Source of the DNA: an uncultured Desulfovibrio sp.
GTDB taxonomy: Bacteria > Desulfobacterota > Desulfovibrionia > Desulfovibrionales > Desulfovibrionaceae
Assembly: GCA_945871415.1 (NCBI GenBank)
Contig: CAMBWG010000018.1
Span: forward strand, 1-13,859
Direction: 5' to 3'
DNA length: 13,859 nt
Part shown: positions 1,145 to 12,343 of the stretch, piece by piece
Layout of the letters: every line of letters begins with the position of its first letter
How positions within the stretch are numbered: the stretch's first letter is position 1
Position numbers and translations under genes: made by a program
The notes under the pieces: generated by a model
Database searches by the model: none
The model's input: the letters and a program-made list of their open reading frames with translations, nothing else
What the model was told of the DNA's origin: nothing

Positions 1145-1290
1145 CTGGAGCACTTTCAGTTTGAAACGCATTGCGTTTCAAACCATACGACCTGTCGTTT
1201 TGCGGAAAAACGCTGTTTTTACACTCACTTCGGGCAGGGCGGCGCTGTGACGCCGCCTCGCGTGTCATCTTTTTCAAAAAGAACACGCTC
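1145..1290 (+). repeat. Family-1 structured intergenic repeat, copy A
   Basis: This ~146-base element recurs at 8617-8763 and 11037-11184, and in shortened, inverted form at 10328-10425. It opens with a 25-base palindrome of 12-bp perfect arms (GTTTGAAACGCA / TGCGTTTCAAAC, 1159-1183). Next comes the core CCATACGACCTGTCGTT, which itself folds as ACGAC-CT-GTCGT. A 7-bp GC hairpin follows (GGCGGCG / CGCCGCC, 1238-1257), then an imperfect last hairpin (1260-1288). No protein-coding potential is apparent; small frames across it are by-products. Function is unknown: it could be a REP-like or MITE-like repeat, or a structured RNA. Confidence 0.85.
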
Positions 1291-1322
1291 TGGCAAGAAA
1301 CGCATTCCACGAACATGCCCCT

Positions 1323-1602
1323 GGCTCAGGACTCATTACTGTTTTCTTGGGATGAAGACCCCCCTTTGCTCTGCTGTCGATGCCCGTAAGGCCCTGCGTG
1401 CCTGACGGGCACGGCCTGCGGCAAAAAGGGCCCCCCTTCCGTAGCAAAGCGAGGAAGGGCGTTCCCGTAAACTCTCCCATCTTCCCCCCCCCGCACGCAA
1501 CATGCCGGCAGGCAAAGAGAGACGTTTCATAACATAGGGTTATGTTTTGTTTTTTGCATATTAGCCCACAGAAAAACAGCTCTTGATAATGAGTCCTGAC
1601 CC
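1323..1602. mobile_element. MITE-like block with terminal inverted repeats next to the mreB stop
   Basis: The left end GGCTCAGGACTCATTA (1323-1338) matches the reverse complement of the right end (1587-1602, GGGTCAGGACTCATTA) at 15 of 16 bases. Past a 6-base indel the similarity continues (CTGTTTTCTTGGG against CTGTTTTTCTGTGGG). The 280-base block has no credible ORF, contains a family-2 repeat copy, and is AT-rich at its right side (1505-1600), unlike the flanks. Its right edge supplies the first base (plus strand) of the mreB stop codon. The ends resemble IS5-type terminal repeats in form, but no clean target duplication is visible, so the element class is inferred. Confidence 0.5.
1345..1466 (-). 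repeat. Family-2 intergenic repeat, copy 1
   Basis: Read on the minus strand this stretch shares two blocks with 11380-11497. GCCGCAGGCCGTGCCCGT (18/18 identical, 1405-1422) and TACGGGCATCGACAGCAGAG (20/20, 1369-1388) are separated by 16 bases here and 15 there. The blocks pair through TGCCCGT/ACGGGCA. The outer arms that make a long stem in the other copy have diverged here, although a local CCCTTCC/GGAAGGG hairpin remains. It lies inside the MITE-like block at 1323-1602. Confidence 0.75.
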
Positions 1603-8616: not shown

Positions 8617-8763
8617 TTCCAGAGCATTTTCAGTTTGAAACGCGTTGCATTTCAAACCACAGGACCTGTCGTTGTGCGGAAAAGCGCGCTTTTTCCACAC
8701 GCGTTGGGCCGGGCGGCGCTGTACTGCCGCCTCGCATTCTGCCTTTTTCAAAGGCAGAATGCT
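8617..8763 (+). repeat. Family-1 structured intergenic repeat, copy B
   Basis: This is the most complete copy. It has CCAGAGCATTTTCAGTTTG, a 25-base imperfect palindrome (8633-8657), the core CCACAGGACCTGTCGTT, a GC hairpin (GGCGGC/GCCGCC) and a last hairpin with 13-bp perfect arms (8734-8746 / 8750-8762, GCATTCTGCCTTT against AAAGGCAGAATGC, loop TTC). It lies between an operon terminator and the next operon's promoter region. Confidence 0.88.
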
Positions 8764-8798
8764 CTCTATGCCTGAAAAGGTCGGCCCGCCTTTCGGGC

Positions 8799-8827: not shown

Positions 8828-8918
8828 TCCCTTCCCCGCACCATAGCAGCACCGGATGTTGTTCCGAGAGACACGCCATACCGCTCACAGGACGGGGAAG
8901 ATTCCTCAAGGAGACTCC

Positions 8919-9368
8919 ATGACGAACACCGCGTTCGATTGCCGCATGTGCGGACATTGCTGCGAAGGCAAGGGAGGCATTGTCGTTTCCCCTTCCGATC
9001 TGCAACGCCTGTGCGACTTCCTCCGCATGCCTGCCGATGCCGTTATAGCCGCCTACGGCGAACAGGCCGGCGGCAAACTGAAAATCCGCTGCGGCGAGGA
9101 CGGCTACTGCATCTTTTTCCGACAGGGCAAGGGCTGTATCGTCCATGAAGGCAAACCCTCCATCTGCAAGGCCTGGCCCTTTTTCCGCGGCAACATCGAG
9201 GACCCCGAAAGTCTGGCACTGGCAAAGGATTTCTGCCCCGGCATCAATCCCGACATCAGCCATGAAGACTTTGCGCGGGAGGGCATGGCCTATCTGGAGC
9301 AGGAACGTCTTTTAGCCAGCGATACCCGCACCGAAGCCAACGCTCTTATTCTTTCTCACAGGCAATAA
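8919..9368 (+). CDS. YkgJ-like cysteine-cluster protein (putative metal-chelating)
   Basis: A 149-residue small cytosolic protein of the YkgJ/UPF0153 cysteine-cluster type, thought to bind zinc or iron; the cellular role is not established. The pattern is C8-x2-C11-x2-C14-C15 at the N terminus, then C58, C64, C73, then HEGKPSICKAWPFF with C83, and C106 in DFCPG. ATG 8919 was chosen because AAGGAG sits five bases upstream; the frame is open further upstream (to 8856) but without a ribosome site. Three bases separate its stop from the DnaJ-like gene, so the two form an operon. Pairing of a metal-cluster protein with a J-domain protein might hint at maturation of a metalloprotein, but that is only inference. 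Confidence 0.88.
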   Translation: MTNTAFDCRMCGHCCEGKGGIVVSPSDLQRLCDFLRMPADAVIAAYGEQAGGKLKIRCGEDGYCIFFRQGKGCIVHEGKPSICKAWPFFRGNIEDPESLALAKDFCPGINPDISHEDFAREGMAYLEQERLLASDTRTEANALILSHRQ

Positions 9369-10327: not shown

Positions 10328-10425
10328 TTCCCCCAACGCGCTTTTTCCAAGGCGTTTTTCCCGCGGAACGACAGGCCGTATGGTTTGAAACACACATCGT
10401 TTCGAACTAAAAATACTCCAAGGAG
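10328..10425 (-). repeat. Family-1 structured repeat, copy D (truncated, inverted)
   Basis: On the minus strand it reads GGAGTATTTTTAGTTCG, then a 25-base imperfect palindrome, then the core TTTCAAACCATACGGCCTGT and GCGGGAAAAACGCC. The copy ends near GCGCGTTGGG, where the GC hairpin and last hairpin of the full element are replaced by the GGGGGAAGG hairpin next door. The orientation is opposite to copies A, B and C. Confidence 0.8.
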
Positions 10426-10474: not shown

Positions 10475-11029
10475 CTACTCCGGGAGCCTGAACGAAATGG
10501 CATCGGAATCAATACCATATTTGCCGACGGTCACTTCCCTGTCGTCGCCGCTCGGCCAGGATATTCCGGTTTCCACCCGCCAGTCCGTTATATCGCTGAC
10601 AAAAAAATACTTTCCGCTTTTCCTGTCAAAGGCTTTCACGAAAAACGATCCGTCATGATTATAAAAGACAGTTGTGACGGGATTTCTGGGCACGCTGTAG
10701 CATTCGACAACAAAACGACCGTCCGGACTGACTTCTTCCGAAAACAGCGTTCCTCCCGCCCGCAGCGCCCAGGGCACTCCCCAATAGACGGCGGCCCAGA
10801 TCACGGCATAGACGCCGAGCCAGCGCCACGGTGTTTTTGAACACAGAGGCACGGCCATAACCGACAGGACAAGCACGCTGACAAAGCCCAGAAGGAAAGT
10901 CATCATGGCCGGGCTAACATCATCCGGCCCGGCCCAGAGATATGTTTTCCAAAGAACGCCCAGCCATACCGCAACGGCCAGAAGGCCTTTGACCCACCGG
11001 ACAGCCCGCGTAAAATTCTTTTGCGGCAT
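10475..11029 (-). CDS. Small uncharacterised membrane protein
   Basis: 184 residues, family not recognised. Three hydrophobic helices are visible in the first half: roughly 10-29 (GLLAVAVWLGVLWKTYLWAG), 42-62 (MTFLLGFVSVLVLSVMAVPL) and 68-88 (WLGVYAVIWAAVYWGVPWAL). A soluble C-terminal domain of about 90 residues follows, with FSEEVSPDGRFVVECYSVP, VTTVFYNHDGSFFVKAFDR and a beta-rich feel. ATG 11029 has GGAGG five bases upstream; an in-frame GTG at 11035 would overlap that site and is rejected. The gene stands alone, bracketed by inverted family-1 repeats. Its leader and Shine-Dalgarno sequence lie at the edge of copy C. It may be a lineage-specific gene. Confidence 0.8.
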   Translation of the reverse strand: MPQKNFTRAVRWVKGLLAVAVWLGVLWKTYLWAGPDDVSPAMMTFLLGFVSVLVLSVMAVPLCSKTPWRWLGVYAVIWAAVYWGVPWALRAGGTLFSEEVSPDGRFVVECYSVPRNPVTTVFYNHDGSFFVKAFDRKSGKYFFVSDITDWRVETGISWPSGDDREVTVGKYGIDSDAISFRLPE

Positions 11030-11036
11030 CGTCACC

Positions 11037-11184
11037 TCCAGAGCATTTTCTCTTGAAACACCTTTCGCATTTCAAACCATACGGCCTGTCGTTTCGCTGG
11101 GAAAACGCAGTTTTTCCGCTCACTCCGGGCCGGGCGGACTGTGCCGCCGCCTCGTGTTTTGCCTTTTTCAAAGGCAAAACACTC
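11037..11184 (+). repeat. Family-1 structured intergenic repeat, copy C
   Basis: CCAGAGCATTTTC, a degenerate first palindrome (TTGAAACACCTTTCGCATTTCAA), the core TTTCAAACCATACGGCCTGT, a shorter GC hairpin (5 bp) and a last hairpin with 13-bp perfect arms (11154-11166 / 11170-11182, GTGTTTTGCCTTT against AAAGGCAAAACAC, loop TTC). The last stem differs in sequence from copy B yet is fully paired. Its reverse complement forms the whole upstream region of the membrane protein gene at 10475-11029. Confidence 0.87.
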
Positions 11185-11207
11185 TTGTCCCACTTCCATA
11201 CAAAACA

Positions 11208-11379: not shown

Positions 11380-11497
11380 TTGGGGGAGGGAACCCCTCTC
11401 GCGCCAGCAGCGACCGGATGGCGGCCGCAGGCCGTGCCCGTTGCGACGAAGGAAGCTACGGGCATCGACAGCAGAGATGAGGGGTTCCCTCCCCCAA
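11380..11497 (+). repeat. Family-2 intergenic repeat, copy 2, with 19-bp inverted arms
   Basis: The perfect 19-bp inverted repeat TTGGGGGAGGGAACCCCTC (11380-11398) / GAGGGGTTCCCTCCCCCAA (11479-11497) encloses two blocks identical to copy 1: GCCGCAGGCCGTGCCCGT (11424-11441) and TACGGGCATCGACAGCAGAG (11457-11476). The inner TGCCCGT/ACGGGCA stem nests inside the outer one, so the whole 118 bases could fold as one cruciform or RNA hairpin. It lies 24 bases beyond the stop of the DUF3426 gene on the minus strand and could also act as that gene's 3' structure. Confidence 0.8.
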
Positions 11498-11521
11498 ACA
11501 ATAAAGACTGTATACTTCGCC

Positions 11522-12343
11522 CTAGAACCCCGTCACAGCGGAGGCATCCTGCACATCCACGATACGGAGGCCGAATTCCTTGATGGTATCGGCAAAGGCC
11601 TGGCTCTGCTCCTTGGAGGGCGGGTAGAAAAGAATCATGAAGGGAACTTCCGCCCCGGGCTGGACATTGGTGTTGGCCGTCACGATATCGACCTTGTTGG
11701 TCAGGAAGGCTTCCATGTCCTTTTCCCGCACGACCTGAAGCTGGAACAGGCTGAGCTGCGTACCCGCCAGCTGGCGCTTGACCGCGAGAGGCTTTTTATT
11801 TTTGTCGTAAATAGCCGCTTCCACGGCAATCAGTGCCTTGGGAGTATCAAAGCCGTTGACGACGACCCCGTCAATGACGAAAACCTTGCCCACGGTTTCA
11901 TTGTCCACATAATACTGATGCACCTTGCGCATGCTCAGCATCCGCAGCTTATCCGCGACCTGCGGTTTGGGCGCAGCCTCGGGGGCGGCGGGAGCCGGAT
12001 CATTTTTCGCTACCGGTGTGGCAGGGGCAGGGCTTTCGCCCGCATCACGCAGGAAAAACCACCACCCGGCAGCCCCCCCAGAAGCCAGCAGAAGCACCAG
12101 AAGAATCAACAGAAGCGGCAGGAGATTACGCTTGCGCGGCTGTTCCTCTTCATCCAGCGAAAAAGGCGCCGTAGCCATGGTCGGCTCCGGTCGGCGCGGC
12201 GCTGCGGCAGGGGCTGCTGCCGCAGCAGGCGACGGCAGTGTGAAGACAGACTGGCAGACGCTGCAACGCAGCTTGGCGCCTGGTTTGACAACGCTGTCCG
12301 GCAGATTGAAACGACTATCGCAGTGTGGGCATTTCACTTCCAT
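11522..12343 (-). CDS. Zinc-ribbon, single-pass membrane protein with DUF3426 domain
   Basis: 273 residues. The N-terminal MJ0042-type zinc ribbon (CPHC at 5-8, RCSVCQSVF at 26-34; ligands C5, C8, C27, C30) faces the cytosol. A Pro/Ala and acidic linker follows, then a strong transmembrane helix (about 74-98, LLPLLLILLVLLLASGGAAG and following aromatic residues). A second Ala/Pro linker (100-130) leads to a periplasmic DUF3426 domain (KVFVIDGVVVNGFDTPKALI, PGAEVPFMILF). Proteins of this build are common in delta-type proteobacteria; their role is unknown. ATG 12343 has GGAG eight bases upstream. A promoter candidate lies 70-95 bases upstream and family-2 copy 2 follows its stop, so it is probably a single-gene unit. 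Confidence 0.9.
   Translation of the reverse strand: MEVKCPHCDSRFNLPDSVVKPGAKLRCSVCQSVFTLPSPAAAAAPAAAPRRPEPTMATAPFSLDEEEQPRKRNLLPLLLILLVLLLASGGAAGWWFFLRDAGESPAPATPVAKNDPAPAAPEAAPKPQVADKLRMLSMRKVHQYYVDNETVGKVFVIDGVVVNGFDTPKALIAVEAAIYDKNKKPLAVKRQLAGTQLSLFQLQVVREKDMEAFLTNKVDIVTANTNVQPGAEVPFMILFYPPSKEQSQAFADTIKEFGLRIVDVQDASAVTGF

Follow-up and report, generated by a model that had tools for sequence, protein, structure and literature searches.

A 148-bp hairpin-built intergenic repeat of Desulfovibrio is very likely an IS630-type MITE

Results

An intergenic repeat in the window

The window, a 13,859-nt stretch of DNA that constitutes contig C18 of an uncultured Desulfovibrio sp. genome (G000), contains three full copies (A, B, and C) and one truncated copy (D) of an intergenic repeat, at the places where the original prediction had put them (Table 1). 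Orthologues of one protein encoded in the window assign the host to Desulfovibrio, with identities of 95% to 'Candidatus Desulfovibrio intestinigallinarum', 94% to MAG BRZ_SQ__bin37, and 82% to E25__bin168. Gene calls made independently, with their own codon model, locate all four between genes, as had been claimed; the left end of copy C lies directly against the start of minus-strand gene 10475-11029. The same end may supply part of the ribosome-binding site of this ORF (10475-11029/11035; window 11029-11050), which has no NCBIfam match at E 0.001.

Two details of the original prediction held in part. Copy D had been drawn from 10328 to 10425, of which 10351-10418 aligns to the consensus and 10328-10350 does not, and the GTTTGAAACGC palindrome described as common to the copies is clear in A and B and degenerate in C and D. 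That description proposed no mechanism and did not include the terminal inverted repeats of the element, TAGAGC...GCTCTA, which point to its identity. The statement that no named element of this layout was known stood up: Rfam gave 0 matches at gathering thresholds over the whole window, the best E-value for copy B at permissive settings was 1.8, and a search of the Desulfovibrio literature by title and abstract listing did not find such a repeat. Judged from Rfam and this literature, the element is unnamed. Copy B contains one promoter-like match (shuffles 0.1, sd 0.3) and two overlapping terminator-like matches (shuffles 0.8, sd 1.0).

Table 1. Coordinates of the repeat, its hairpins, and associated elements. 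Those of the full copies A, B, and C are approximate and include the end dinucleotides.
Feature	Location	Strand	Remarks
Copy A, full length	window 1146..1292	+	Spacer of minus-strand genes 263-1063 and mreB-like 1602-2624; opposed to gene direction
Copy B, full length (feature under study)	window 8620..8766	+	Plus-strand neighbours, upstream gene ending 8413, downstream gene starting 8856-8919; along gene direction
Copy B, hairpin 1	window 8633..8657	+	Outer arm overlaps inner part of left terminal repeat
Copy B, hairpin 2	window 8662..8711	+	Basal stem, internal loop, apical stem; placed by model structure
Copy B, hairpin 3	window 8712..8731	+	GC-rich
Copy B, hairpin 4	window 8734..8762	+	Right terminal repeat paired with inverted inner copy
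Copy C, full length	window 11039..11186	+	Spacer of minus-strand genes 10475-11029 and 11522-12178; opposed to gene direction
Copy D, truncated	window 10351..10418	-	Model positions 3-70 only; between convergent genes
Second intergenic repeat	window 1331-1500	+	
Second intergenic repeat	window 11423-11504	-	
IS630 element	G048 L205:1396-2388		993 bp, intact
137-bp element	G048 C10:25806-25942; C4:12750-12887		
137-bp element	G000 L174:1419-1548; L039:11510-11638; L186:7017-7152		
Related family with five-hairpin interior	L288-L291, L294, L301-L304, L308		Other Desulfovibrio genomes

Abundance and orientation relative to genes

Copies were counted in samples of two genomes. G000, the genome of the window, comprises 2.56 Mb in 435 contigs and is 79% complete; its sample consisted of 41 of the largest contigs (577,426 bases). 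G048, a relative that is 99% complete, was sampled in parts of 13 contigs (779,078 bases). After removal of overlaps, the G000 sample holds 148 copies, 86 of them full length, which make up 3.05% of the DNA; the G048 sample holds 171, of which 122 are full length (2.84%). The expectation of many copies genome-wide is borne out by these numbers, which extrapolate to about 650 copies in G000 and 720 in G048, rough totals because the sampled contigs are large ones. The full element measures 148 bp. In a DNA search of G000, the best 40 of 606 first-look candidates were near-full copies with 82-100% identity, copy B included. A consensus search of 338 kb of G000 returned 77 matches, one of them an opposite-strand duplicate on a copy already counted, against 0 in the reversed sequence, which argues that the repeat is not a product of chance.

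None of the 148 copies in G000 and only one of the 171 in G048 overlap a called gene by more than half. The element has no coding capacity: copies lie outside called genes and differ by single-base indels (mechanical frames do cross copies). Gene-flanked copies are distributed over convergent, tandem, and divergent spacers as 41/75/9 in G000 and 41/106/11 in G048; per kb of repeat-free spacer, divergent spacers are four- to five-fold poorer than convergent ones.

Between tandem genes, the element is oriented against gene direction in 127 cases and with it in 54 (p 6e-8). This opposition is observed where genes follow the local GC skew (59:20) and where they do not (68:34), suggesting an orientation effect tied to genes, which may arise by purging or by insertion preference. 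With a cruder gene finder that calls antisense frames, the tandem orientations were 45:25 and 71:30 opposed. Replication strand was rejected as the cause of the bias because convergent sites divide 42:40 against the local gene majority. Relative to GC skew, 34 convergent sites are oriented with and 48 against, and the 20 divergent sites divide into 5 with and 15 against; the skew may thus have a small effect on orientation.

Ends of the element and unoccupied sites

The ends, located by GAGC and GCTC and not by TA, form an imperfect terminal repeat of about 23 bp. Among 77 G048 copies with intact ends, 46 read TA-GAGC...GCTC-TA; 20 are one transition off in their end dinucleotides, one reads AA/AA, and one AT/AT. 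The base preceding TA is C or T in 60 of 69 cases and the base following it is A or G in 56 of 66, as at Y-TA-R sites. In G000, where the median nearest-neighbour divergence of copies is 11.5% vs 6.8% in G048, only 15 of 47 copies keep TA/TA. Tandem copies have a dinucleotide in common, TA in L025 and CA in L021. The flanking TA presumably represents a target duplication.

Placing the flanks of individual copies in the other genome revealed that about half of the comparable sites are unshared, in both directions. For 36 of the 148 copies in G000, counterparts of both flanks could be located in the G048 sample, with the repeat present at 18 sites and absent from 18; reciprocally, 33 of the 171 G048 copies were placed in the G000 sample, with the repeat present at 18 sites and absent from 15. 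Clean junctions were found at 3 of the 18 and 1 of the 15 absent sites, four in all; the remaining 15 and 14 are not clean, and most show absence only. The flanks of the element at C8:8266-8413 in G048 are 2 bases apart in G000, and those of the G000 element at L044:9725-9874 are 3 bases apart in G048. The lengths of the clean empty sites are compatible with a 2-bp target, with further small differences on the left side of one, and their letters at the target are TA once (L181:943), CA twice (C8:8266 and L181:11012), and CG once (L044); further readable empty sites show TA, TA, and CA. This mixture of TA, CA, and CG counts against a simple TA duplication. In at least two cases (opposite L033:13217 and L182:4853), the absence is a deletion and the site is not an empty one, as a short piece of the element survives there with both of its ends.

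Four hairpins with covarying stems

Copies A, B, and C each fold better than 200 of 200 shuffles (z -4.2 to -4.4), and truncated copy D folds no better than its shuffles (z +0.6). When five families were folded singly (as a consensus for G000, G002, and G033 and as single copies for G024 and G007), all gave the same layout, a short single-stranded end plus hairpins 1 to 4. The families have in common this layout, loops of similar size, and the internal loop of hairpin 2. Single-sequence folds and covariation thus agree with the original prediction of a multi-hairpin repeat family.

A covariance model was built from 27 G000 copies. To the model we fitted an alignment of 35 copies (34 distinct) from 33 loci in 22 genomes, picked from earlier matches, and the alignment therefore favours the model structure. 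Paired cells amount to 94.8%, and 33 of the 49 pairs change on both sides. Such two-sided changes occupy 224 cells, compared with 64.7 (sd 5.5) in shuffled alignments and 18-43 with slid partners, and they occur in all five helices (8/11, 6/9, 5/9, 3/7, and 11/13 pairs). Within G000 alone (27 copies), two-sided changes affect 9 of 49 pairs and 21 cells (8.8 in shuffles) and are located in hairpin 4 and a single pair of hairpin 1. G-U and A-C pairs number 76 vs 45 in A4, or 46 vs 45 without two consensus-level pairs, and 47 vs 24 in A6, with 28 of the 47 in two pairs.

Change within resident copies was counted at pairs free of subfamily polymorphism. The 76 G000 copies examined show 232 single changes that break a pair, 106 that keep it, and 18 compensated cells; the corresponding numbers for 112 G048 copies are 274, 125, and 15. 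We take this predominance of pair-breaking over pair-keeping change to suggest that pairing matters more for spreading than for a resident copy. Some selection on resident copies may nevertheless act, given that stems change less than loops (6.2 vs 9.3% in G000, p 0.007; 4.9 vs 6.4% in G048, p 0.08) and that two-sided changes are in excess within G000.

Distribution among relatives

Scans of this genome and its relatives with the covariance model, whose E-values are rough, found further copies. At E 1e-4, the model matches 44 of 79 genus genomes (39 candidates scored per genome); at E 1e-5, it matches 32 genomes in a draw of 199 from the family, in 11 of 44 genera (15 scored per genome). Within one genus, the scored matches per genome range from 39 of 39 to none. 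A blastn search over 100 relatives had placed the repeat in 16 of 101 genomes, all 16 of one genus, a confinement overturned by the model.

Copies examined in G007, G106, G105, G116, and G037 keep the hairpins without TAGAGC ends. The low-copy relatives L263 and L277 (G007, G106) score alike and seem to share flanks. A related family in genomes such as G110, G017, G058, and G054 combines TAGAGC ends and end hairpins with a five-hairpin interior (Table 1); in 400 kb of the one-contig genome G110, 16 matches were found, 4 of them full length, and 0 in the reversed control.

The window also carries a second intergenic repeat of about 145 bp, with inverted ends resembling GGGGGAAGGAACCCC that enclose TGCTGTCGATGCCCGTA...ACGGGCACGGCCTGCGGC. 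It has 19 matches in the 577-kb sample of G000 and 25 in the 779-kb sample of G048, and the main repeat is nested in it at least once (G048 C12:20763).

An IS630 element with similar ends

G048 contains one intact copy of an IS630 element, whose right TA is common to an adjoining repeat copy. Its 322-aa protein matches the NCBIfam IS630 transposase with 193 bits (cut-off 100) and the Pfam families HTH_23 and DDE_3 (116 bits for DDE_3, cut-off 28.6). The left end of the IS630 element agrees with the right end of the repeat at 21 of 23 bases and with its left end at 18; for the right end of the IS630 element, the agreement is 17 of 23 and 18 of 23, respectively. The G048 sample has 165 TAGAGC sites that are not part of a called copy; among them, the IS630 element provides the sole 21-of-21 match, the next best being 20. 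Ends excepted, the interior of the repeat and IS630 have matches of chance length only. We therefore rejected an origin of the repeat as an internal-deletion derivative of IS630: only the ends match, and the interior is unrelated.

Relatives of the G048 transposase occur in 19 of 79 genus genomes at E 1e-10, and a search with PF13358 (DDE_3) gave matches in six of 12 genomes, G043, G040, and G042 having none. G043, which is listed as 100% complete and is copy-rich, has neither a relative at E 1e-10 nor a DDE_3 match. G000, at 79% completeness, lacks a match to the transposase at this threshold and has one other DDE_3 match of 47 bits. A 39-aa piece of the IS630 transposase, 100% identical, lies at a contig end in G040, and G021 has a frame-broken IS630 copy with 83-88% identity, together with contig-end pieces. 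An insertion sequence with PF13340 was considered as a partner and rejected; it is present in G021, G043, and G048 but has no match in G000, and the sequence from a repeat copy to the PF13340 frame reads GGGGTTGTTTC, with no TAGAGC end seen. This insertion sequence (L191, L192, L199) has a second short frame, and its 131-aa first frame is identical in G043 and G048.

Both G000 and G048 also contain a 137-bp element that, over about 97-117 bp, has 73-81% identity with the right part of IS630. By its sequence, this is an ordinary deletion MITE derived from IS630, and its presence in G000 shows that the IS family has been in the genome of the window. The 148-bp element outnumbers it by 148 to 3 in the G000 sample and by 171 to 2 in the G048 sample. 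With this deletion MITE alongside, the structured repeat is a distinct element that uses ends of the same kind and is far more numerous.

Discussion

Taken together, the many intergenic copies, the terminal repeats, presence and absence between relatives, the TA ends, and the match to IS630 point to an IS630-type MITE. We consider it very likely that the repeat is a 148-bp element of this type, of the RUP/Correia kind, that is moved in trans and whose hairpin pairing is kept in spreading lineages while its inserts decay. Its mover would be an IS630 transposase: a DDE enzyme of this family, like that of G048, would recognise the TA-GAGC...GCTC-TA ends in trans and insert the element at Y-TA-R sites, duplicating a 2-bp target. 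Insertions would persist where they are least harmful, in intergenic DNA other than divergent spacers. The interior, of non-IS origin, would constitute a four-hairpin module of which the pairing, not the letters, is kept in spreading lineages, with individual inserted copies decaying. The hairpins presumably serve the spread of the element rather than the host.

Among known systems, the element seems most like RUP with IS630-Spn1. In the passages of PMC3049150 that describe it, RUP is a 107-bp repeat with terminal repeats like those of the resident IS630 element, a target duplication, and a predicted RNA fold; it is over-represented between convergent genes, numbers 110 copies in one strain, and is reported to follow coding bias, with 60.9% on the leading strand. 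Compared by description and not by sequence, the 148-bp element shares the terminal repeats matching IS630, the predicted fold, and the convergent enrichment. It differs from RUP in its length, its four hairpins, its roughly 650-720 extrapolated copies, and covariation across species, and is oriented against tandem genes, whereas RUP follows coding bias. Correia elements (NEMIS) of Neisseria are presented in parts of PMC10969869 as abundant intergenic MITEs, mostly just upstream of genes, that carry promoters and whose transcripts RNase III can cut at the terminal repeats. The likeness to them, again by description and not by end sequence, lies in being an abundant intergenic MITE; host and size are different, and the 148-bp element is poorest in divergent spacers. 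The sections of PMC2170065 on ISY100/IS630 describe one gene for a DDE transposase with an N-terminal helix-turn-helix, a TA target with 2-bp duplication, and terminal repeats of 24 bp. The AA/TT duplications found with 2 of 39 ISY100 products may be compared with the AA/AA and AT/AT copies in G048. Unlike IS630/ISY100, the 148-bp element is gene-free and lacks an IS interior. ERIC, a 127-bp enterobacterial repeat that is intergenic and palindromic, resembles it in these respects and in size, by description and not by sequence, and occurs in distant hosts. A 127-bp enterobacterial repeat appears under the name RU-1 in the abstract of PMC2759123.

The hairpins invite other readings. They could form a host-serving RNA or regulatory module (a 3' end stabiliser, terminator, or insulator) that is only incidentally mobile, as would fit the covarying structure, the smaller change in stems than in loops, the convergent enrichment, the 127:54 orientation against tandem genes in either GC-skew class, and the hairpin relatives without transposon ends in low-copy genomes. 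Yet such a module would have to be reconciled with about half of the comparable sites being unshared by two relatives, with resident copies in which loss of pairs is commoner than their retention or compensation, and with scored matches that vary within a single genus between 39 of 39 and none; moreover, convergent enrichment is read as the mark of a parasitic repeat in the pneumococcal passages of PMC3049150. We regard this explanation as improbable. If the repeat were of the REP/REPIN type, mobilised by a RAYT (Y1) transposase as single-stranded DNA, hairpins and compensation would be explained directly: REPINs are described in parts of PMC3116915 as hundreds of hairpin-forming intergenic copies with common compensatory changes, and Y1_Tnp is found in 13 of 24 genus genomes tested, including one each in copy-rich G021 and G043. 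The TA-flanked ends with IS630-matching terminal repeats and the lack of any RAYT (Y1_Tnp) match in the copy-rich genomes G000 (79% complete) and G048 (99%) make such an origin highly improbable.

The repeat could also be an IS630-type MITE in which covariation is a by-product of mutation, through quasi-palindrome template switching or arm-to-arm conversion, and not of selection. Quasi-palindrome correction is known from other bacteria, and G-U pairs, which selection on an RNA would tolerate on one of the strands, are not clearly above A-C. This mutational route is unlikely, in that families preserve the layout, loops of similar size, and the internal loop of hairpin 2, and resident copies, under the same mutation, do not stay palindromic.

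Within the preferred reading of a trans-moved IS630-type MITE, the interior is not an IS remnant and so departs from the textbook MITE. It is possible, if somewhat doubtful, that the hairpin interior is itself selected in a DDE-moved MITE lineage found across much of the family, and that pairing, preserved by compensatory change in spreading lineages while each insert decays, lets the element outnumber the IS-derived MITE; the hairpins would, for example, present the ends to the transposase or make inserts cheap for the host. The relatives without TAGAGC ends weigh slightly against this reading. Such selection has been described for REPINs, and we know of none for IS630-type elements.

As an IS630-type MITE, a very abundant repeat of gut sulphate reducers, which makes up about 3% of two genome samples, would be accounted for and linked to its likely enzyme. 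A pair of non-autonomous elements whose ends are of the same kind, one built of conserved hairpins and abundant, the other not so built and rare, would provide a natural experiment in which the reasons why some MITEs outrun others, and the role of nucleic-acid structure, become directly testable.
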